DNA from: Alistipes sp.
GTDB lineage: Bacteria; Bacteroidota; Bacteroidia; Bacteroidales; Rikenellaceae
Direction of reading: 5' to 3'
NCBI GenBank assembly: GCA_017646625.1
Contig: JAGCMF010000028.1
Span: forward strand, 1-49,022
DNA: 49,022 nt
Position 1 is the stretch's first letter. Each line of letters begins with the position of its first letter. The notes beneath the pieces are model-generated. The model was not told where the DNA came from. It did no database searches and was given only the letters and a program-made list of their open reading frames with translations. The translations under genes and the position numbers were made by a program. This document shows positions 39,865 through 49,022 of the stretch, one piece after another.

Positions 39865-40668
39865 ATGAAAAGCAAGGTTGTTATTCCATTCCGTTGGCCT
39901 GGCGGTAAATACTATGCAATAAAACTATTGCGAGCTTTCTGGGAAAATCACGATCACAATGAATATCGCGAGCCATTTTTCGGTGGAGGTTCAGTATTTT
40001 TTGCTAAGGATAAGGTTGAGCATAATTGGATTAACGACATCGATGTAGATCTTGTTAATACGCTTATGGTTATGCAAGATGCAACTACGCGTGCGCAGCT
40101 GGCGGACATGTATAGGGATGAATATGAGGCTACGCCAGAGAGTTATGCTGTAGTGAAAAATATGACACCTCAGAGTAACCTAGAAAGAGCATATAAGTAT
40201 TACTACCTTAATCGTACTTCGTATAGTGGTAAAATGCTAAATCCATCATGGGGCTATAGACCCAAAAGAAGTCTTCCTCCACGTCGATGGCATGAAAGAA
40301 TATTACCATGTGGTCAAAAGCTAGAGGGGGTAAAAATAACATCAGTAGACTTCTCTGAAGTAATGTTGGCCGACTCTGAAAATAGAGTGCTAATATTTGT
40401 AGATCCACCATACTATAATGCCAAACAGTATGTCCACTCATTTGTAGAAGAGGATCATAAAAGACTTGCTGAAGTATGTAAGCAGACAAAGCATGATTTC
40501 TTTCTAACGTATGACGATTGCCCTGAAATACGAGAACTCTATAGTTGGGCATATATATACGATTTAAAATTTTACTATAGGCTTGACAATTCTCGAGATA
40601 ATGATGATAAAAGGCAGATAGGATCGGAACTTGTAATTACAAACTTTGAGGTAAATTTTAATAAGTAG
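39865..40668 (+). CDS. D12-class DNA adenine methyltransferase (M1)
   Basis: Predicted N6-adenine DNA methyltransferase of the Dam/D12 class (alpha group), 267 residues. Motif X RWPGGKYYAIKLL (about 8-20), motif I YREPFFGGGSVFF (about 35-47) and the catalytic motif IV DPPYYNAKQ (about 182-190) are all visible. Between them lies a target-recognition region (YYLNRTSYSGKMLNPSWGY). It begins 21 bases after mnmE and is followed one base later by a second D12 methyltransferase. Base use is visibly A/T-richer than in mnmE, in line with transfer. Recognition sequence unknown; it probably protects one strand of the target of the nuclease at 41734. Confidence 0.9.
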   Translation: MKSKVVIPFRWPGGKYYAIKLLRAFWENHDHNEYREPFFGGGSVFFAKDKVEHNWINDIDVDLVNTLMVMQDATTRAQLADMYRDEYEATPESYAVVKNMTPQSNLERAYKYYYLNRTSYSGKMLNPSWGYRPKRSLPPRRWHERILPCGQKLEGVKITSVDFSEVMLADSENRVLIFVDPPYYNAKQYVHSFVEEDHKRLAEVCKQTKHDFFLTYDDCPEIRELYSWAYIYDLKFYYRLDNSRDNDDKRQIGSELVITNFEVNFNK

Positions 40669-40669
40669 C

Positions 40670-41560
40670 ATGAACCAGCAACTGCGACTTTTTGACATTT
40701 ATGATGATAGTCCTAAGAGTACAAACATAAAATTAGATACTCTTAGAGGCATCTCACGTGCAAAAAGAGTCGATAATGTAAGGCCTTTTTTACGCTATCC
40801 TGGCAGCAAGTATAATGCCGCTAAATTTATAGAACCATTCTGGGCGAATATTGAATTTGATGAATATAGGGAACCATTCCTTGGCGGTGGTGCCATCTTC
40901 TTCAAAATGCCTAAAAGTAACTATTCAATCCTAAATGACATTGATGAGGAACTTATCAACTGTTATAGAGTAGTTCAAGATCCAGTAATGGTTCAAAGAC
41001 TAAAATCAGATGTTAGCAGTGTGATGCCAACACGCGAGTGGTTTGAAACGTTGAAACACTCGAAGCCAGTTGATGAATATGCTAGAGCACTGAGATACTT
41101 TATGATTAATAGAACAGCATATAGCGGCATCATGAATCTCCCCAATTGGGGCTTTCATCCCATTAAAAGCGTTCAACCAGACAAATGGCCAGATCGTCTG
41201 CAATCAGCTCATGACAAATTAGTAGATAATGTGGAGCTAACAAACACTCATTTTAGAGATATTATAACTCACAAATCGAGTAGACGAGTGTGGATGTTTG
41301 TCGATCCGCCATACTATGCAGCAGATCAGAAAAGAGCATACAAGATGAGTTTTAATGTAGAAGATCATTTAGAGCTCAATGAACTGCTTAAGAATACTAA
41401 ACATATGTTCTGCCTAACATACGACAATTGTCCACAAATTAAAGAGTTGTACTCATGGGCAAATATTTATGAGTTAGAATGGATGTATCACACGGCAAAT
41501 TCAAATGTTACCACACGTAAAATTGGCAAGGAACTTATCATAACAAACTATGACCTATAG
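40670..41560 (+). CDS. D12-class DNA adenine methyltransferase (M2)
   Basis: Second N6-adenine methyltransferase, 296 residues, paralogous to its neighbour. Motif X RYPGSKYNAAKFIEPFW (about 41-57), motif I YREPFLGGGAIFF (about 66-78) and motif IV DPPYYAADQKRAYKMSF (about 216-232). The N-terminal 40 residues are extra compared with M1 and not recognised. One base separates it from M1, so the two are co-translated. Two D12 enzymes side by side usually mean an asymmetric target with one enzyme per strand. A/T-rich like the rest of the island. Confidence 0.9.
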   Translation: MNQQLRLFDIYDDSPKSTNIKLDTLRGISRAKRVDNVRPFLRYPGSKYNAAKFIEPFWANIEFDEYREPFLGGGAIFFKMPKSNYSILNDIDEELINCYRVVQDPVMVQRLKSDVSSVMPTREWFETLKHSKPVDEYARALRYFMINRTAYSGIMNLPNWGFHPIKSVQPDKWPDRLQSAHDKLVDNVELTNTHFRDIITHKSSRRVWMFVDPPYYAADQKRAYKMSFNVEDHLELNELLKNTKHMFCLTYDNCPQIKELYSWANIYELEWMYHTANSNVTTRKIGKELIITNYDL

Positions 41561-41563
41561 AAT

Positions 41564-41683
41564 GAGAGTGAATAAAAAGTGTATTTTGTCGTTACGCTTG
41601 CCCTCAAAATGCTCATTTACGATCAGTAAACTCCGCTTTTTCGGGCTTCGCAAGCCTAAAACTACTTCTTTTTATTCACTCTC
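41564..41683. repeat. Structured inverted-repeat element between convergent RM genes
   Basis: Outer arms of 16 bp are perfectly complementary (41564-41579 with 41668-41683). Inside lie two small hairpins: TTTAC with GTAAA (41616-41620 with 41626-41630) and GGCTT with AAGCC (41644-41648 with 41652-41656, loop CGC). It sits exactly between the convergent methyltransferase and nuclease genes and may act as a bidirectional terminator. The branched layout also resembles small palindromic mobile elements. Confidence 0.75.
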
Positions 41684-41733
41684 TTAGGTTATGGGGGGGC
41701 TGGTACTGTTACTTTTTAGTCAGCCTCATTTCT

Positions 41734-42990
41734 TTACCTCCACTCTTCAGGTATAGCATTAAGCACATATCTCTTATTTTTCCTAAACTCCGAGTCTAAT
41801 GGGATAACATCAAATCCACGATGACGTCTATATCCATCGATGTCGGGAGATATTATTATGTCATCATTGACTATTTCGAATCTAAACTTTAGGTTTGGAT
41901 ATATGACATCACTATATTCTGGCAAGTTCCACTTTTTATTACCGCTACCCTTTTCAATTGTTTCATCACCATTACCCACTAAATAGTGTGTTGGAAGGTC
42001 AGCTGTTGGGATTATAACAAAATTTACCTTTCTAACTGCTGTGTGCGGCGGAAGTTGATCCTTCGATATAATGATAGCTACGTAATCTATGCTAGATCTC
42101 TTATACCCTCTTGCTGGGAACTGTCCATGTGTTCCCATAACCTCAGTTCCCAACTTTCTCGACTTTATATCACACATATTCTTTGAGGTACCTTTAATCT
42201 GAACACGGTACTGACCACTATTTGATGAGACCAATACATCGTACGCACTATACGTTGGGATGGTGTCATCCACCGTAACACCTTCGTCGATTAGTTGTTG
42301 TATAAACATCTGCTCTTTTAAGTTGCCTTTTAACCCCATAACAGCAGCTCTAAAATATTCAGGCTTACATAGCATCTCTATAATCTCATAATCTTCTAGA
42401 TATGTTTGACTACTCAAGAATGGCAATACACTATTCTTTGGAATATCTCTACGATCAAACTCCATACACTTTGTACTATCTAAACCAAGTAGATCCCACC
42501 TATTAAGCCACTCTGATGTCCATGAAAAATATGCGGGATCGGCTAGTCTATTTTCCCAACGTCTATGTAATGGAATTTCACGAAACGGCACTATATATAC
42601 ACCACTCTCGGGATGTTGAGTGCAAAGGATATTAAATGGAGGCTCATCTGTTGGGTACAGGTTAAATGGTGCAGTCTCGTCACCATGTGTTTTGTGCAAT
42701 GCCACACCAACTCGTATGTTTCGTTTTGTAGATGTCACAACAGGAGTCTTTACCTGCACAGCAATGCCATTAACATAAAGATCTACATCACTATCACCGA
42801 CACCATCTTTCATATCAACACTTTCATCGGCTTGCTTGATGATTTTCTTCATATACTCTTCAAATGCAATTCCCTTTATAGGCCGCAATATATTTACATC
42901 CCTTCTTGCAACAGCATCAATACTACTCCACTGAATGTTGTGTATCTCAATAATGCTCTCAAAGCGTTTTTTTAGTTCCTCAGATATCAT
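41734..42990 (-). CDS. Putative type II restriction endonuclease with two PD-(D/E)XK-like cores
   Basis: Predicted DNA-cleaving partner of the two methyltransferases, 418 residues; I do not recognise a named isoschizomer. Two nuclease-like cores are visible. The first, FEEYMKKII then GVGDSDVDLYVNGIAVQVKTP (about 60-80), has the GD...D...QxK pattern of Mrr-type enzymes. The second, TYSAYDVLVSSNSGQYRVQIKGTSK (about 237-261), has D...QxK. In both the usual E of ExK is Q. Both look intact. Its ATG overlaps the stop codon of the XRE gene (ATGA), so expression is coupled to the regulator. Function is inferred from motifs and neighbours. A single-core enzyme with a DNA-binding pseudo-core is the alternative. 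Confidence 0.7.
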   Translation of the reverse strand: MISEELKKRFESIIEIHNIQWSSIDAVARRDVNILRPIKGIAFEEYMKKIIKQADESVDMKDGVGDSDVDLYVNGIAVQVKTPVVTSTKRNIRVGVALHKTHGDETAPFNLYPTDEPPFNILCTQHPESGVYIVPFREIPLHRRWENRLADPAYFSWTSEWLNRWDLLGLDSTKCMEFDRRDIPKNSVLPFLSSQTYLEDYEIIEMLCKPEYFRAAVMGLKGNLKEQMFIQQLIDEGVTVDDTIPTYSAYDVLVSSNSGQYRVQIKGTSKNMCDIKSRKLGTEVMGTHGQFPARGYKRSSIDYVAIIISKDQLPPHTAVRKVNFVIIPTADLPTHYLVGNGDETIEKGSGNKKWNLPEYSDVIYPNLKFRFEIVNDDIIISPDIDGYRRHRGFDVIPLDSEFRKNKRYVLNAIPEEWR

Positions 42991-43199
42991 TCTAATAAGT
43001 CTGTTATTTTAACATTTAGGGCTGCAGCTATCTTCTCGATGTTAATCAATGTAATATTCTTTTCAGCGCGTTCAATCATGCCTATGTACGTACGATGAAG
43101 TCCAGCAATCTCTGCCAATTGTTCCTGAGATAACCCCTTGCTCTTTCGCAATCTTTGAACATTCTTTCCAAATAGTATAAGTACTGATTCATTTGTCAT
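42987..43199 (-). CDS. XRE-family HTH regulator, controller (C) protein-like
   Basis: Small DNA-binding regulator of 70 residues from the ATG at 43199 (MTNESVLILFG). The HTH_3 fold spans NVQRLRKSKGLSQEQLAEIAGLHRTYIGMIERAEKNITLINIEKIAAALN (about 12-61). Size and position, directly upstream of and overlapping the nuclease gene by ATGA, match C proteins that delay restriction until methylation is in place. The start at 43223 is rejected because it lies upstream of the expected transcript start. A 10-bp inverted operator pair brackets its promoter. Confidence 0.85.
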   Translation of the reverse strand: MTNESVLILFGKNVQRLRKSKGLSQEQLAEIAGLHRTYIGMIERAEKNITLINIEKIAAALNVKITDLLE

Positions 43200-43210
43200 A
43201 ATTTCGATAT

Positions 43211-43261
43211 TTATAGTATGCAAAATTATAATGAAACAACCGATTTAACAACATACTATAA
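43211..43261 (-). promoter_or_regulatory. Promoter and paired operator of the XRE-nuclease operon
   Basis: On the minus strand the order is TTATAGTATG (complement of 43252-43261), a TTG -33-like element (43249-43251), 20 bases, TAATTTTG (complement of 43221-43228), then CATACTATAA (complement of 43211-43220). The two 10-mers are a perfect inverted repeat (31 bases apart) that exactly brackets the core promoter. This fits autoregulation by the XRE protein. Confidence 0.65.
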
Positions 43262-43352
43262 TTAGCATATCTTCATCTTTATCATATCTCATAGCTACAT
43301 AATTTTGGAATACCATATATCGGTACATCCACACTATCTATAGGCGTATATA

Positions 43353-43659
43353 ATGCAGTATGCATCACTATACGAAACCCTACTTTTGCTTGAGAAACAT
43401 AAAAAGAGAGGCTTGGTATTCCCAGATTTGACCGAGTACAAGTTGAGTTTCTATATCCCTCGCCTACTCAAATTCGGCAATGATTTAGAAACACATCACC
43501 TTCCACTGCTTCCTGCACACATTCGCTATGCGTCTTCTGGACAACGGCGTGGACATCTACACCATCGCCACCCTCCTTGGACACAAATCAGTCACCAGCA
43601 CGCAGGTCTACGCCCGCCTCTCACCAGCTCAAGTCCGTGAGGCGGTAATGAAATTATAA
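43353..43659 (+). pseudogene. Tyrosine recombinase C-terminal remnant, frameshifted
   Basis: The first part (about 43400-43482) reads KRGLVFPDLTEYKLSFYIPRLLKFGND. The reading then continues in the next frame from about 43489 as KHITFHCFLHTFAMRLLDNGVDIYTIATLLGHKS and STQVYARLSPAQVREAVMKL-stop at 43659. These are the box II region of phage-type integrases with the LLGH histidine and the QVYAR tyrosine. The conserved Arg before HTF is Leu, and a frameshift lies near 43483-43490. The N-terminal two thirds are missing. It cannot encode an active recombinase as it stands and marks past integration. Confidence 0.85.
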
Positions 43660-43666
43660 ATATAGT

Positions 43667-43705
43667 GTCATAAACGACGAGGGATTTACTTTCGTCGTTT
43701 ATGAC
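43667..43705. terminator. Hairpin at the end of the 409-residue gene
   Basis: A 14-bp perfect stem (43667-43680 with 43692-43705) has an 11-base loop. It overlaps the stop codon at 43699-43701 and lies between the recombinase remnant and the convergent gene. No clear T run, so termination is probable but not certain. Confidence 0.6.
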
Positions 43706-44928
43706 TGTTCAGAGAATGCCTTGATAATAGGATAAATCATAGAACTGCTCTGATGTGACTCTATTTCGGTCAAAGTTGGGAACATACAATCTTTTGAGTT
43801 ATCAATAATAGCCTCACTACTAATAAGATATTCTTCTGCTTTATCTTTTGTTATTTTATCAAAAGCAAGTACTTCTGACTGTAAATTGGCGATTCTATAC
43901 CGATAATCTTGATTCAACATATTAAGGTCGTCGTAATATATCATCTCTCCGACAAGAAATACAGCGACTATATTAGTATTTTTCTTTATTTCTGATGCGA
44001 GTTCGTATATTTTTCTATAGGTTGTTGTTTTTATGGATGCTTGATACATAGTCATGGATAATATACCATCCTTGTTTAAGACAAGGATAGTTGGCATAAG
44101 ACTCTTTTGCATTGCATAGTGAACGATATGCAATCGCTTAAAAGCTTCAAATGTATCTTGTATAAAATCATCCGTCAAATCCATTTTAAGTATGTTACAA
44201 AAATCGGAGCATTTAACTCCTGTCGAATGAGGAGTAATCATCTCATATCTTTGCCCTTTTTCAAAATAACCATCTTCCCTATAAAACACATAGTCATCTA
44301 CAAACCATGCTTCCTTAGGCGTTTTGTGAAATAACAGTTTATCTATCTTAGATAAAAGAGTTTTGCGTTCTTGTGATGGGGCTGCTCCAATTTTCTCATC
44401 TATAGCAAAAAGCATTGATTGAAGAGATTCTATTCCACGATCTATGGTTTCAAATAAATTCACTTCCTTCCCGACCTCTTTATAAATAAACTCTGTCGAG
44501 AAAAATACTTCGAGTGCTGGGATATTGCTTATTACTCTTTTTACCATATCAATTAATGACGAGTAATCAACTTCATCTTCAATTGTAAAACACTCTGTCG
44601 GAAAGACTCCAGTACTATATGGAAGATAGATTCTCAATATCAACTGTTTTTCCAAAGAGAAAGGCTTTTCTTTTTGTATTTCATTTCTTTTTATCTTCAA
44701 CCATGAGCAATGAGGATTGCTAAGATATTGCTCGCATAATTGTTTATACACAGACAAATAATCCGTATGTGCTAATGACTTGTGCAAAACAAAAGTCACA
44801 TTGCGAAATTCTGATAGAAAATTATCGATGCACGCAATGTTATCAAAAAGATCCTGACCTTTATTGAATCTTTCTATACTCTGAAGAGCAGAATAGAGCT
44901 TTTGATATGCTGATAGTAGTAAATCCAT
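43699..44928 (-). CDS. Unrecognised 409-residue protein, possible HEPN-like N terminus
   Basis: I do not recognise this protein. It has no signal peptide or membrane segment and looks soluble. The N-terminal 100 residues are helical, and FLSEFRNVTFVLHKSLAHTDYLSVYKQLCEQYLSNPHCSWLKIKRNEIQKE resembles HEPN-like helical bundles that carry an R-N-x4-H motif, but here the His position is Lys, so nuclease activity is not supported. The C-terminal half alternates strands and helices (TILVLNKDGILSMTMYQASIKTTTYRKIYELASEIKKNTNIVAVFLVGEMIYYD). Divergent from the TPR regulator, with a -7 box TATCTTTG upstream. A/T-rich island gene. Confidence 0.8.
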   Translation of the reverse strand: MDLLLSAYQKLYSALQSIERFNKGQDLFDNIACIDNFLSEFRNVTFVLHKSLAHTDYLSVYKQLCEQYLSNPHCSWLKIKRNEIQKEKPFSLEKQLILRIYLPYSTGVFPTECFTIEDEVDYSSLIDMVKRVISNIPALEVFFSTEFIYKEVGKEVNLFETIDRGIESLQSMLFAIDEKIGAAPSQERKTLLSKIDKLLFHKTPKEAWFVDDYVFYREDGYFEKGQRYEMITPHSTGVKCSDFCNILKMDLTDDFIQDTFEAFKRLHIVHYAMQKSLMPTILVLNKDGILSMTMYQASIKTTTYRKIYELASEIKKNTNIVAVFLVGEMIYYDDLNMLNQDYRYRIANLQSEVLAFDKITKDKAEEYLISSEAIIDNSKDCMFPTLTEIESHQSSSMIYPIIKAFSEQS

Positions 44929-44956
44929 AATATTATGTATTCGTTATATGACTCAC

Positions 44957-44964
44957 ACAAAGAT
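44957..44964 (-). promoter_or_regulatory. -7 box (TATCTTTG on minus strand) of the 409-residue gene
   Basis: The complement matches TAnnTTTG, 29 bases before the start codon at 44928. No -33 box is seen. Confidence 0.45.
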
Positions 44965-45001
44965 AATGATAATTACACAATCTAATATGAGAAAATTATG
45001 A

Positions 45002-45009
45002 TAACTTTG
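45002..45009 (+). promoter_or_regulatory. -7 box (TAACTTTG) of the TPR regulator gene
   Basis: Exact TAnnTTTG match, 30 bases before the ATG at 45040. No -33 box is seen. Confidence 0.5.
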
Positions 45010-45039
45010 CAGGAAATTAGGTGATGTATTTATGAAATA

Positions 45040-46137
45040 ATGCAAAATAGGATGAAATGGTTCATATATATAATAACAATTATAAGTTTAATATTTTGGA
45101 GCTTTACTTCGCCTTGTGCGGCTCAATATCGTGAGACGCGCAGGCTTCTAACAGAGGTTCAAGAATACATAAATGAAAAGCCAGATAGTGCAATTATTAT
45201 ACTGAAGGGGTACGAAACACTTGCTGCACAGGATGAGGGCACGGAGGCACTGCGTGCCGTTTTGCTTACCAAAGCGGAATATATAGCAACTGATAGTATC
45301 GCATCGGATTCATTGATTCAAGGTGCTGTAAAATACTACAACAAAGAAATTTCGTTAGAATCGGCTCAAGCATCCTATTATCTCGGATGTTACTATTTTA
45401 GTCGTGATAAAAACAAGGCGGCATACTCCTTTCAAAACTCCATCAATTTCACCCCAGATGGCAATAATAATCATAAGGGGCGTGCATATCACGCTTTAGG
45501 TTCTTGCCATTTTGCAAATGGAAGTATTGAAGAGGGTGTCAAGGCCTATGAAACAGCATTAGCATTGCTGGATGAAAATGAAAACGAAAGCACCTGGCAA
45601 CTCTGTCAAGACATAAAAAAGGCGTTAAATGCAGTCAATAGAGTCGAAAGGGGAAATACCCTATTCGCTATATTTGTTATACTAACGTTGCTTGCCGTTA
45701 TTAGTCTATGTGGATTTATATATTACAAAGTTAAGAAGTATAGCATGGTCAAGACTACCAAAACTAAACTTTCAGATGATCCATTAGAACAGAAACTACT
45801 TGAGGGTAAATCTACATTTGAGCAGACATCTGTTTATAAAACTCTTCAAGAGATACGAAGTCTGAATGAGAATGAACTTCACTCAAGAAATGACATCGAT
45901 GTCAAAGCCATAGAGGAAACCATTCTTGCGTCGTTCAATGATGCTTATCATATTTTAGCTGAATGTGAAAGCAAAATAAGTCATCAAGACTTGATGTTAT
46001 GCTTGTATAGTTATCTCAAAATAACAAATAATGTTGCAGCATTTTGCTTGAATTCCGTACCAGGAACGATACGCCAGAGGAAAAACAGACTAAAAAGCAA
46101 ATTGCCTGAAAACGTGTACATTATACTCTTTTCATAG
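45040..46137 (+). CDS. TPR/transmembrane/HTH one-component regulator
   Basis: Predicted membrane-spanning transcription regulator of 365 residues. An N-terminal signal or anchor (about 5-27) is followed by TPR-like helices facing the periplasm (about 30-195; PDSAIIILKGYETLAAQ, ASYYLGCYYFSRDKNKAAYSFQNSI, GRAYHALGSCHFANGSIEEGVKAYETALALL), one transmembrane helix (about 208-229, LFAIFVILTLLAVISLCGFIYY) and a cytoplasmic part. The end carries a LuxR-like HTH (SHQDLMLCLYSYLKITNNVAAFCLNSVPGTIRQRKNRLKSKL, about 310-353). It sits 114 bases upstream of the barrel gene, across a phased repeat array that is its likely binding site. Ligand unknown. Confidence 0.78.
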   Translation: MQNRMKWFIYIITIISLIFWSFTSPCAAQYRETRRLLTEVQEYINEKPDSAIIILKGYETLAAQDEGTEALRAVLLTKAEYIATDSIASDSLIQGAVKYYNKEISLESAQASYYLGCYYFSRDKNKAAYSFQNSINFTPDGNNNHKGRAYHALGSCHFANGSIEEGVKAYETALALLDENENESTWQLCQDIKKALNAVNRVERGNTLFAIFVILTLLAVISLCGFIYYKVKKYSMVKTTKTKLSDDPLEQKLLEGKSTFEQTSVYKTLQEIRSLNENELHSRNDIDVKAIEETILASFNDAYHILAECESKISHQDLMLCLYSYLKITNNVAAFCLNSVPGTIRQRKNRLKSKLPENVYIILFS

Positions 46138-46141
46138 TTTA

Positions 46142-46182
46142 TGTAACGCAAATGTAACGCCCCTATAACGCTGATGTAACGC
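46142..46182 (+). repeat. Four TGTAACGC-type repeats with exact 11-bp period
   Basis: TGTAACGC occurs at 46142, 46153 and 46175, and TATAACGC at 46164, so starts are spaced 11, 11 and 11 bases. All face the same way. They lie just after the TPR-regulator stop codon and end 30 bases before the -7 box of the barrel gene. One repeat per helical turn suggests cooperative binding on one DNA face. Confidence 0.9.
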
Positions 46183-46212
46183 AGAAAAATAGGCATCGGA
46201 GCACCTTAGCCA

Positions 46213-46220
46213 TATCTTTG
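46213..46220 (+). promoter_or_regulatory. -7 box (TATCTTTG) of the barrel gene
   Basis: Exact TAnnTTTG match, 31 bases before the ATG at 46252. No TTTG at the -33 position; the phased repeats lie immediately upstream instead, which suggests an activator-dependent promoter. Confidence 0.6.
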
Positions 46221-46251
46221 TCAACAAAAATAACAGATTAAAAAACAGGTT

Positions 46252-48585
46252 ATGACAAAGAAATTGGTTTTATTGGTTATGATGTTCTTGAGCTGTACTA
46301 TATCTTTAATGGCTCAGAACATTTCGGGAAAGGTGGTAGATGATAATAATAATCCTCTGCCATATGTTAGTGTAGTTCTTCAAAATGTTCAAGATTCTTC
46401 CTATGTAAGAGGTGTTGCAACTGATCCTGAAGGTTTATTTACTCTCTCGGTTAAGGCTGATGTTGAGTATGCATTGTCAATATCATATATTGGATATGTG
46501 ACTATCAATAGAACTTGTAAAGCAGGTGATGTTGGCACCATTGTAATGAAAGAAGATGCAATGATGCTCGAAGAAGTCAGTGTCATTGCATCGAGAACTC
46601 AGCACGATGCAAATGGATATACAGTAAACCTCCGTTCATCTGAAATTGCCAAAGGTAAACAATCTTCAGACGCATTGGCATTTCTTCCTGGTGTAAGTAA
46701 TGAGGATGGCAACTACAGAATTAACGGATTACCCGTTAGCGAAATTTATGTAGATGGCGTAAAACTCACTTCTTCTGATGAGCTCAAAGACTTGCCTGCC
46801 GATATGATAGATAAGGTAAAGGTAAATTATTTGGCAGGTAGTAACCAGAATGCAGCAATGACTGGTGGAACAATTGAAATCTCATTGCGTCAGCCACCCC
46901 AAGGAGGATATTATGGAGCAGTAACAGGCGGAGTCACACTCTATCCATCTTATGGCTTTAGCAATGAAAACATAGGAGGAATTATGTACTATCGCTACAA
47001 GAACCTTAGTATATATGATAACCTATCATTGAATTTCAACCAGCAACAAGAGACTGCCGAACAGACTATTTGGGATCCTGCAACAGATTTGCGTACAGAA
47101 ATCAATGAGGAGACAAAATATAAGGGATATACTATTAACAATCGTTTGAGCCTTACCCAACAAATTAATGACAGAAACTCTATCGGAGGTAGTTATTATA
47201 TTGCAACAAATAGACTTAATACTACCTCTACAACTTTGGGTAATGATGTGAACGCCATTCAATCTATGATTGATGATAGGAGCAGTTATCTTGACCAAGA
47301 GGCTACTTTGAAATATACATCCATACTCAGTCAGCGAGGTACAACACTGGATATTATTGGCGACTATTTCAATCGCCAAACAGACAGCAAGTCTAACTAT
47401 TCGTACAGTGACAATACTTCAAGTATATCTGAGGATGAATCTTCATTGAATATGTACAAACTATCTGTAGATTTGACCGACCCTCGTAGTCAAAAGTTGG
47501 TTTGGAAATATGGAGCCTCTATTCAGTATATAACCTCTGATTATACCCCTACGCTCGGAACTACAAACAACGAAGATCGCTTCCAAACGAGCTTGATTCC
47601 GACTAGAACAAGTGGTTTGACTCCACTTGCATATGTTTCTGCAATGGGTCAAATATGGAAAATTCAATATAGTGCAGGTGTGAATTTCCAATTGAATAAG
47701 ATTAGCTACGAGACATTGGATGATGGAGCAAAGTCTTCGGATATCCAGTGGGGAATAAATCCTACCGTTCAATTGATGATGCCTCTTGACAAGAATGGCA
47801 AACACGCTTTGATGCTTAACTATAAGCGTACACTTGATGACATCCCTTATGCTGCTATATCATCGACTATTCGTTGGAGTGACCCATATAACTATACAGT
47901 AGGTAGCCCCGATTTGAAATCGCCAACAGCAGATATGGTTATTGCTGGAGCATCATTATTCCGCAATATATTGAACCTGACGGCTGTTTATGCTCATTCA
48001 AAGAATGCTATTTATTGGGAAACAATGCAGAGTCCAACAGCATCAGATGTGTTTTACACAAAGCCTGTTAATTTGGCTGCCGAAAACATGTATGGTGTAG
48101 GCGCTGAAATCAATTGGAGTCCAGTAAAGCCTTGGACTATGAAGTTGTCTGGTCGTCTTGAAATTCATCCTGAAGATATCACATTGGGTGGTATTTATTA
48201 TGGAGACACAAGACTTCGCCAATACTACGCGATGTATAACACATTCAGTTTTAATCATGGCTGGGGTGGTATGTTGAATATTATGTATGAGCCTACTTAC
48301 AAGACATATGATAGAACTTACCACGCAGTCTATAATATCGGCGGTCAGATATATAAGACAATGTGTAAGGATAAGTTGCAATTGACACTTACCTTCAATG
48401 CTCTTGGCGATCGTCGCAAGTATGACAGATATGCCAATGGCAACAAAATTACATACAATTACACTACACCTGTACAAAACATCGGAATTTCACTCGTGTG
48501 GAGATTCTCTGGCGGTAAGAGTGTAAATGTCAATGTCGTAGAAAACGGTTCACAGAGTTTCAAAGAGGTTAAAGATATTAGATAA
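46252..48585 (+). CDS. Outer membrane beta-barrel protein with carboxypeptidase-regulatory-like and plug domains
   Basis: TonB-receptor-like outer membrane protein of 777 residues. A signal peptide (MTKKLVLLVMMFLSCTISLMAQ) is followed by an N-terminal regulatory-like Ig domain (about 24-105; ISGKVVDDNNNPLPYVSVVLQNVQDSSYVRGVATDPEGLFTLSV), a plug-like domain (about 107-210; LEEVSVIASRTQ, SSDALAFLPGVSNEDGNYRINGLPVSEIYVDGVKL) and a barrel of the OMP_b-brl_3 kind ending in NIGISLVWRFSGG. No obvious TonB box, and it is smaller than SusC proteins. Ligand unknown; probably binds or imports a small molecule, or acts as a surface receptor. Controlled, by inference, by the upstream TPR regulator. Confidence 0.85.
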   Translation: MTKKLVLLVMMFLSCTISLMAQNISGKVVDDNNNPLPYVSVVLQNVQDSSYVRGVATDPEGLFTLSVKADVEYALSISYIGYVTINRTCKAGDVGTIVMKEDAMMLEEVSVIASRTQHDANGYTVNLRSSEIAKGKQSSDALAFLPGVSNEDGNYRINGLPVSEIYVDGVKLTSSDELKDLPADMIDKVKVNYLAGSNQNAAMTGGTIEISLRQPPQGGYYGAVTGGVTLYPSYGFSNENIGGIMYYRYKNLSIYDNLSLNFNQQQETAEQTIWDPATDLRTEINEETKYKGYTINNRLSLTQQINDRNSIGGSYYIATNRLNTTSTTLGNDVNAIQSMIDDRSSYLDQEATLKYTSILSQRGTTLDIIGDYFNRQTDSKSNYSYSDNTSSISEDESSLNMYKLSVDLTDPRSQKLVWKYGASIQYITSDYTPTLGTTNNEDRFQTSLIPTRTSGLTPLAYVSAMGQIWKIQYSAGVNFQLNKISYETLDDGAKSSDIQWGINPTVQLMMPLDKNGKHALMLNYKRTLDDIPYAAISSTIRWSDPYNYTVGSPDLKSPTADMVIAGASLFRNILNLTAVYAHSKNAIYWETMQSPTASDVFYTKPVNLAAENMYGVGAEINWSPVKPWTMKLSGRLEIHPEDITLGGIYYGDTRLRQYYAMYNTFSFNHGWGGMLNIMYEPTYKTYDRTYHAVYNIGGQIYKTMCKDKLQLTLTFNALGDRRKYDRYANGNKITYNYTTPVQNIGISLVWRFSGGKSVNVNVVENGSQSFKEVKDIR

Positions 48586-48610
48586 CAGCATCAATAAACC
48601 CTCAGACACA

Positions 48611-48646
48611 CTAATGGCGACTGCTCGGTTGAGTAGTCGCCATTAG
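48611..48646. terminator. Hairpin after the barrel gene
   Basis: A 16-bp stem with one G-T pair (48611-48626 with 48631-48646) has a 4-base loop. No T run follows, so it is a likely but not classical terminator. Confidence 0.65.
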
Positions 48647-48725
48647 TCACAATTGCAAGGCTCAATTGATTCCCTCATTTTACCCACAAGTCTGTAATCA
48701 TCTGATTATCGATGCTATTTTCACA

Positions 48726-48745
48726 CTGCATCGGCAAGTAACTAA
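48726..48745 (+). other. Right attachment-site repeat (mnmE 3' end copy)
   Basis: Direct repeat of 39828-39847, identical at 18 of 20 positions. It still reads Cys-Ile-Gly-Lys-stop, with synonymous codons ATC for ATT and GGC for GGA. The similarity continues four bases past the stop codon. Upstream of it no mnmE coding remains. Confidence 0.65.
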
Positions 48746-48780
48746 CGCCCTCTAACGCTCACTAACAAACGCTAACGCCT
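48741..48780 (+). repeat. Four CTAAC(GC) repeats with exact 10-bp period
   Basis: CTAACGC starts at 48742, 48752 and 48772, and CTAACAA at 48762; the spacing is exactly 10. The first unit overlaps the end of the right attachment repeat. The shared core TAACGC recalls the array upstream of the barrel gene. Confidence 0.85.
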
Positions 48781-48818
48781 ACAAATAGCAACAGCATTTC
48801 CCACAAAAATAGACGAAT

Positions 48819-48856
48819 AAATCCCGAAAGTTAGACTCGACTTTCAGGATTTTTTA
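48819..48856 (+). terminator. Hairpin with T run between the two terminal arrays
   Basis: A stem of about 13 bp with one mismatch (48819-48831 with 48840-48852), an 8-base loop and a T run overlapping its 3' side (48850-48855). Fits a Rho-independent terminator on the plus strand. Confidence 0.75.
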
Positions 48857-48890
48857 TGCTTTAATGTCTTCAACAAGAATATCTCTCCAA

Positions 48891-48940
48891 GTTTGCAGTG
48901 GAGTGCAATGAGGTGCAATGGAGTGCAACGAGCTGCAATA
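48891..48940 (+). repeat. Five TGCA-centred repeats with exact 10-bp period
   Basis: Five consecutive decamers share TGCA at 48894, 48904, 48914, 48924 and 48934, with GAGTGCAATG as the approximate unit (GTTTGCAGTG, GAGTGCAATG, AGGTGCAATG, GAGTGCAACG, AGCTGCAATA). Different core from the TAACGC arrays but the same head-to-tail helical phasing. Confidence 0.85.
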
Positions 48941-49022
48941 ACAGGGCGAAGAGAATTGTACTTTCTACTAAAAAGGCATTGGTTGTCGGTGGCGAAAGTC
49001 GTTCACAACTTTTTCCGAAAAA

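Follow-up and report, generated by a model that had tools for sequence, protein, structure and literature searches.

A phased array of TG-words as the predicted operator of a TPR-transmembrane-HTH regulator encoded beside an outer-membrane barrel gene in Alistipes

Introduction

Tandem winged helices of the OmpR/PhoB type bind direct repeats spaced 11 bp apart above a promoter, as in the Pho box, and one word serves a genome-wide regulon. The transmembrane one-component activators ToxR and CadC carry a winged helix-turn-helix (HTH) at the N-terminus; SusR of Bacteroides, like ToxR and CadC, combines an extracytoplasmic sensor and a cytoplasmic HTH in one protein. A promoter consensus for the primary sigma factor of Bacteroidota is given in the accessible parts of PMC7366714 and PMC12632263, the second of which names SusR as a sus regulator. 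PMC2954219 describes BT_3442 as a TPR protein clustered with lipoproteins and putative pore formers, and the accessible part of that source mentions neither a regulatory role nor an operator for it. Our search found no literature on TPR-HTH membrane regulators with phased operators or on the pairing of such a regulator with a barrel, an absence that carries little weight because subscription papers mostly lay beyond its scope.

Here we analyse positions 1 to 49,022 (forward strand) of contig JAGCMF010000028.1 of Alistipes sp. (GCA_017646625.1); this whole stretch of 49,022 nucleotides is referred to as the window. Close to its end, four phased repeats separate the gene of a TPR-transmembrane-HTH regulator from that of an outer-membrane β-barrel protein. 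The array has 11-bp phased direct repeats above a promoter in common with OmpR/PhoB operators; there, however, a single word is shared by promoters, whereas in the TPR-HTH family the word differs with the regulator. We do not count the regulator as a member of the PhoB group, the same word not being found at several promoters in the window's genome. With ToxR and CadC it would share the union of extracytoplasmic sensor and cytoplasmic HTH that we propose here, but its HTH is C-terminal and its outer part is TPR, whereas theirs is N-terminal. The likeness of its HTH to those of the NarL/FixJ (GerE/LuxR-type) proteins EvgA, VraR and FixJ is one of weak alignment (E 0.15–1.5); in contrast to these, the HTH is joined to a TPR-transmembrane protein rather than to a receiver domain, and the sites are direct repeats one turn apart. 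Finally, N-terminal similarity and HTH matches to the model connect the regulator with the BT3442 family and DUF6377, TPR proteins of Bacteroidota, although the BT3442 model spans 563 positions and the regulator 365 residues. In its working, the TPR-HTH regulator would resemble the transmembrane one-component activators, with a geometry like that of the Pho box.

Results

Architecture of the regulator

The regulator gene (45040..46137, + strand) is an open reading frame of 365 codons whose product has a hydrophobic N-terminus and an HTH-like region at its C-terminus. The single transmembrane segment, FAIFVILTLLAVISLCGFI (aa 209–227; 45664..45720, + strand), has a Kyte-Doolittle mean over 19 residues of 2.85, the strongest in the protein. 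Judged by hydropathy only, this one membrane helix lies between the TPR part and the HTH, as in a one-component regulator. A TPR_2 match over aa 148–179 scored 26.5 bits, just under the cut-off of 27. The BT3442_fam model (NF053779) matched aa 13–186 with 41.2 bits against an equivalog cut-off of 940, so the protein is not a member, and DUF6377 (PF19904) gave 19.5 bits over aa 187–280, short of its gathering cut-off of 36.7.

Profile A4, together with the covariation described below, places the C-terminal HTH region at aa 312–356 (45973..46107, + strand), with VPGTIRQRKNRL as the putative recognition helix. A Pfam search of this region returned no confident HTH family and no GerE match. Run against the PDB, profile A4 (17 HTH domains) retrieved EvgA, VraR and FixJ among 13 listed sequences, at the weak E-values given above and below one implausible match (E 0.034); the alignments span the HTH including the recognition helix. 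Fifteen of the 17 domains match the BT3442 family model (E ≤ 1). The covarying residue, which follows a conserved basic residue, aligns in profile A4 with what we take to be the base-contacting valine of NarL; its counterpart in the window, by covariation, is Q346 (codon 46075–46077, + strand).

The phased array and its promoter

The target gene (46252..48585, + strand) encodes a 777-residue outer-membrane β-barrel protein (OMP_b-brl_3, E 4e-56) with a carboxypeptidase-regulatory-like domain at the N-terminus (CarbopepD_reg_2, E 1e-15). The array lies on the same strand in the intergenic region of 114 bp. Copies 1 (46142..46149) and 2 (46153..46160) read TGTAACGC; the first is kept in two homologous loci, L034 and L035, as is the hexamer of the second. 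Copy 3 (46164..46171) is degenerate, reading TATAACGC in the window and L034 and AATAACGC in L035, and copy 4 (46175..46182), the promoter-proximal one, is again TGTAACGC and starts 38 bp above the −7 box.

An earlier, sequence-only reading of the window had described four same-strand octamers in exact helical phase, starting 5 bases past the regulator's stop codon and followed after 30 bases by a perfect −7 box. The phase (11, 11 and 11 bp), the distance from the stop codon (which ends at 46137) and the box (TATCTTTG, 46213..46220, + strand) proved correct; three of the four copies are exact, the one at 46164 having one mismatch. In L035 the box reads TAACTTTG. The same reading had noted the absence of a −33 box. 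Tested against the primary-sigma consensus, the window has TAnnTTTG at −7 and lacks TTTG near −33, where ATAG stands at 46189..46192 (+ strand), but this is not a family trait: sequence comparison places TTTG there in L035, and many relatives have it too.

The best four-copy score of the intergenic region was 31 of 32, a value equalled by none of 2000 dinucleotide shuffles (shuffle maximum 26), and the array is the top-scoring four-copy array at periods of 7–20 in the 49-kb window. At up to one mismatch, TGTAACGC is not enriched window-wide (22 observed, 36 expected); its clustering and phasing, not its abundance, are what stands out. The window's genome (G000; 1.87 Mb, 91% complete) contains no second exact TAACGC-N5-TAACGC, and with one mismatch five places were found against four for the control.

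Three further elements lie 3′ of the barrel gene. A terminator-like 16-bp inverted repeat (15 of 16 paired, 4-base loop) follows it directly at 48611–48646. At 48742–48778, about 156 bp past the gene, three copies of cTAACGC and one of CTAACAA are arranged in exact 10-bp steps; they have TAACGC in common with the putative operator, and no TAnnTTTG was seen 38–39 bp below them. Near the contig end, at 48894–48939, TGCAGT, TGCAAT, TGCAAT, TGCAAC and TGCAAT succeed one another in 10-bp steps; no such array was seen in the 500 bp past the barrel of L034 or the 180 bp past that of L035, and the words may form the operator of a gene past the contig end.

Homologous loci and origin of the gene pair

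A scan of genome contigs yielded the homologous gene pair at two loci, L034 (recorded as Bacteroides sp.; regulator 88% identical, barrel split into two frames) and L035 (Bacteroidaceae bacterium; regulator 71% identical). Both have four repeats in exact 11-bp phase and keep the −7 box. Across the three sequences, 23 of the 24 columns of the core hexamers are invariant, compared with 13 of 20 in the linkers, 15 of 27 between array and box and 7 of 8 in the box. Remote TPR paralogues in L030, L031 and L032 have, as judged by eye, no phased array behind them, and the viral contigs scanned for close relatives contained no homologue.

Within the window's own family (268 genomes), the sole other match at E 1e-12 covers residues 33–189 of a 576-residue frame. 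About 6 kb to the left, a gene shares no more than 53–67% identity with its same-genus matches, and GC content drops past about 40 kb (0.35–0.38 at 40000–49022, 0.42–0.51 before). Because of the single partial match, the diverged gene and the GC drop, the regulator-barrel pair, operator included, was probably acquired from another family. The low-GC stretch 40000–49022 at the contig end, which holds a PD-(D/E)XK nuclease-like gene (41734–42990), was probably acquired. That L034 and L035 belong to another family than the window is deduced from their absence among these 268 genomes. A mis-binned contig instead of an acquired pair is a possible explanation.

Recurrence of the layout behind related regulators

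We searched genomes from L034's family with the regulator profile and then with the HTH profile, which gave matches in 12 of 399 genomes at E 1e-15 and in 45 of 251 at E 1e-7 (up to 18 per genome); 12 chosen genomes and 19 genomes of one genus completed the survey. This gave 128 rows, 123 of them distinct by C-terminus and following DNA. Sixteen rows with an HTH that is not C-terminal were dropped, leaving 112; removal of near-identical downstream DNA reduced these to 62, and L241, a stretch that is not behind a regulator, was excluded. The final sets comprised 61 stretches, 18 anchored arrays and 43 HTH lineages. Of these 16 relatives, ten (L162, L168, L169, L171, L172, L177, L178, L194, L195 and L197) end in GT-x-G-x-N-x-x-G-x-DP behind a hydrophobic stretch.

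The layout shared by the family consists of at least two like TG-words 11 bp apart and a −7 box 38–39 bp below the last copy; it is found behind the regulator gene and in some loci before it, with copy numbers from two upward. Since scoring for four copies missed operators with two, we used the spectrum of spacings instead. In the 250 bp past the 61 non-redundant regulators, exact 7-mer repeats occurred 16 times at a distance of 11 and 11 times at 22, compared with a mean of 1.5 and a maximum of 5 at control distances. A strict version of the layout (a pair of TG-words with at most one mismatch and TTTG 42–43 bp below the last copy) was present at distance 11 in 19 of the 43 HTH lineages, at 22 in five and, for the other distances within the range 5–30, in no more than two each (two at 10 and two at 12). 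The remaining 24 lineages lack it at 11 behind the gene, four of them fitting at 10 or 12; that of the window fails because its copy 3 is TATAAC. Deviating spacings were seen in L196 and L225 (10 bp), L191 (12), L211 and L226 (10 and 12) and L186 (21).

Anchoring on exact TG-hexamer pairs at 11 bp gave 18 arrays, 12 of which have TAnnTTTG 38 or 39 bp below. The other six include the window, where the box lies 60 bp below the anchor at copy 2 and 38 bp below copy 4, and L189, anchored on a shifted word (36 bp); in four of the 18, TAnnTTTG is absent at the expected place. Stretches behind other genes of the same loci show a weaker 11-bp peak (7-mers; 21 of 264, against 14 of 58 behind regulators). 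They are a poor control because the loci hold further arrays, and our controls were instead the other spacings and the pattern in reverse.

The sequence-only reading had expected homologues of the regulator to stand next to barrel genes with phased repeats of 10–11 bp in between. The 11-bp repeats at a promoter were indeed found in relatives, though not always between the two genes, and barrels are frequent but not constant partners, accounting for seven of ten scanned downstream genes. In these ten loci, part of 19 inspected (two of which yielded no gene), the first gene matched OMP_b-brl_3 in four cases, OMP_b-brl_2 in three and Porph_ging in two; one had no match. Some target genes, such as that of L231, begin more than 500 bp past the regulator. 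In the window's genome, the ORF lists around OMP_b-brl_3 matches (nine; seven other stretches) showed no TPR-HTH gene directly before the barrel.

Arrays upstream of regulator genes

Gene pairs devoid of intergenic repeats, which that reading had named as evidence against it, do exist; in L079, L080 and the groups of L164, L176, L185 and L218, however, the repeats precede the regulator gene. The lineage of L141 (13 members, including L078–L080 and L087–L090) has the layout behind the gene in L082 only; L081, L085 and L086 have four repeats there with one copy off. Words of the type TGCCAC lie before the genes of L079 and L080 (loci L302 and L285). The layout search returned upstream arrays at L257–L259 (TGTAAG), L260–L261 (TGCAAC) and L269 (22-bp spacing). 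By eye we recognized others at L252, L253, L255 and L256 (TGGAAC/GGGAAC), L262 (CGCAAC/TGCAAC) and L265 (AGTCAC/TGTCAC); those of the L164 group, L262 and L265 were not returned by the search, and L265 is without TTTG at 42–43 bp. No clear repeats precede the gene in L264, L266, L267 and L268, and the gene start was not found in L263 and L270. The longest array seen, before the regulator at L269 (G559:C84), comprises about a dozen TGCAGT/TGCAAC-like words in steps of about 11 bp.

The words beside regulators are TGTAAC, TGTCAC, TGTTAC, TGTTGC, TGTAGC, TGCAGC, TGGGAC, TGGAAC, TGCCAC, TGCAAC, TGCAAT, TGTAAG, TGTGAG, TGTCTT, TGTCCC and TGAAAC, many of them followed by GC. Inside a single genome, G328, the word changes with the neighbouring regulator: TGTAAC at L035, TGTCAC at L086 and TGTTAC at L051.

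Distribution of the pattern across genomes

We searched 19 genomes of one genus with the degenerate pattern TGNNRCGNTTTTGNNRCGC, in which the two words are free to differ. It occurred at 60 sites in 15 of the 19 genomes, and the same pattern reversed at none. At 48 of the 60 sites the free positions were identical, where 1.9 were expected. The pattern was derived from known words and many matches are the source loci themselves; the reversed control and the agreement at the free positions are the informative results.

Among the matches listed, 31 of the 60 sites lie at most 400 bp behind a regulator HTH on the same strand and 10 lie before one within 2500 bp. The zone from −2500 to +400 bp of regulator HTHs thus holds 41 of the 60 sites in about 0.4% of the sequence, again among the matches listed. 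Five more follow a listed regulator HTH at a distance of at most 8 kb, and 14 are near no regulator among the matches listed, though some of these may have an unlisted one. Some of these 14 have the same word as a regulator elsewhere in their genome, for example TGTTGC in G400 and TGTTAC in G531, and may be second targets. At L286 (G358:C15:90447-90498), TGTAAC, TGGGGC, TGAGAC and TGGGAC follow each other in 11-bp steps with no regulator nearby among the matches listed.

Covariation of word and recognition helix

The proposal that the repeats covary with the HTH sequence was borne out in a table of 31 lineages. The strongest of 44 residue-base pairs links core base 4 to helix residue 7, the one after the conserved basic residue in the recognition helix (R-X-R-K; z 9.1, familywise p 0.001, 1000 permutations); the familywise permutation was applied because a rule connecting Lys with C had first been spotted by eye. 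All 10 lineages with Lys have C at base 4, and none of the 21 with another residue does (by clade, 6 of 6 and 0 of 14); Met is paired with T in all three cases. Similarity of helices correlates with similarity of words (r 0.31, p 0.0005), and the correlation persists when comparisons are restricted to different clades (r 0.25, p 0.0015).

The lineages were collected by hand and grouped into 18 clades by eye, without a tree. The table omits lineages without a readable word as well as L227 (22 bp) and L234 (about 12 bp), both of which lack Lys at the helix position and C at base 4. For L206, whose copies differ, we entered the last one, and for L144, L150, L191 and L229 one of the variants; L164 was entered as TGGAAC despite a second copy starting with G. 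Eight lineages read after the rule had been noted agree with it, two with Lys (L233 and L079/L080) and six without; this later set consists of L233, L164, L176, L185 and L218, all five also in the table, and of L079/L080, L287 and L276.

Close relatives illustrate the rule: STLRKRK is paired with TGTCAC (L170), GTLRKRK with TGCCAC (L223) and STLRSRK with TGGGAC (L204), and the array of L206 (GTLRSRK) begins with TGCCAC and ends with TGCAAC. L206 and L215 are exceptions in that their first copy is TGCCAC despite Ser at the helix residue. The regulators of the window and of L035 have Gln and Val, respectively, at the covarying place, both with TGTAAC. The predicted residue-base code is clear for Lys and Met and loose for other residues, which pair with A or G.

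Discussion

The conserved phase, the shared layout, the adjacency of sites to regulators and the covariation of word and helix lead us to regard the array as most likely the predicted operator of the regulator encoded beside it. The fuller reading, in which HTH domains of this membrane protein bind head to tail and activate the barrel gene, is in our judgement highly probable. What the DNA itself displays is a phased array, its conservation, a recurrent distance to the −7 box, a place beside members of the family and a covariation of word and helix; we infer binding, oligomerization, topology, activation and a periplasmic signal, activation being argued from position only.

In the mechanism that we propose, a single helix would hold the regulator in the inner membrane, the TPR part lying outside the cytoplasm and the NarL/LuxR-like HTH inside. 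Several HTH units would line up head to tail on one side of the DNA, one per 11-bp turn, each reading one TG-word via its recognition helix. The promoter-proximal copy ends just above the −33 position, from where the bound protein could contact RNA polymerase; this contact would help the primary sigma factor and offset the absent −33 box, and the active regulator would switch the barrel gene on. Other family members would do likewise with their own words, the counterpart of Q346 largely setting base 4.

The regulator might instead bind the array as a repressor, or act mainly on its own gene, with the barrel otherwise constitutive. Arrays do precede the regulator's own gene in several lineages, and position alone is not proof of activation; however, a repressor would be expected less readily where the promoter-proximal copy stands 38–39 bp above the −7 box, as in 12 of the 18 anchored arrays, and so keeps off both box and start, or where the promoter is without TTTG at −33, as in the window. 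We therefore consider repression or autoregulation unlikely.

Less probable still is a site for a global response regulator of the OmpR/PhoB type with the TPR gene as an incidental neighbour. The period is indeed that of the Pho box, and in G327 TGCAAT, TGTAAC and CGTAAC stand 11 bp apart before a putative Na/Pi cotransporter gene, but that site is without TTTG at 42–43 bp. We rejected such a site as the main explanation: TAACGC-N5-TAACGC has a single exact occurrence in the window's genome, and the word varies with the neighbouring regulator inside G328 and covaries with its helix. The G327 site itself (L038; G327:C21:254383), which has a regulator HTH on the opposite strand some 5 kb away, could be a true Pho box.

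Chance, a microsatellite born of slippage or an RNA attenuator is hardly credible as the source of the repeats: slippage can create tandem repeats and two other short phased arrays lie 3′ of the barrel gene, but the words are kept while the linkers diverge and the same spacing recurs across lineages with unrelated words, and the attenuator was rejected on the grounds that the intergenic transcript folds no better than shuffles (z +0.85).

Returning to the array as the operator of the adjacent membrane regulator, the comparisons, which cover about a hundred relatives, suggest a private variant of the word for every such regulator, through which it would control a gene nearby, in many cases one that encodes a cell-surface protein. 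From the periplasm, the TPR part might monitor the condition of the surface protein under its control. Whether gut Bacteroidota possess a large family of membrane-spanning TPR-HTH regulators with private, helix-coded phased words and adjacent targets, often surface proteins, that moves between families as a cassette of regulator, operator and target is a wider proposition to which we give even chances. A family annotated by its TPR repeats alone gains predictions of its function, of a DNA site recognizable by eye and of a residue-base code. If true, many regulator-target pairs of gut bacteria could become assignable from their sequences, and such pairs could be usable as a mutually insulated set of promoters for gut commensals.
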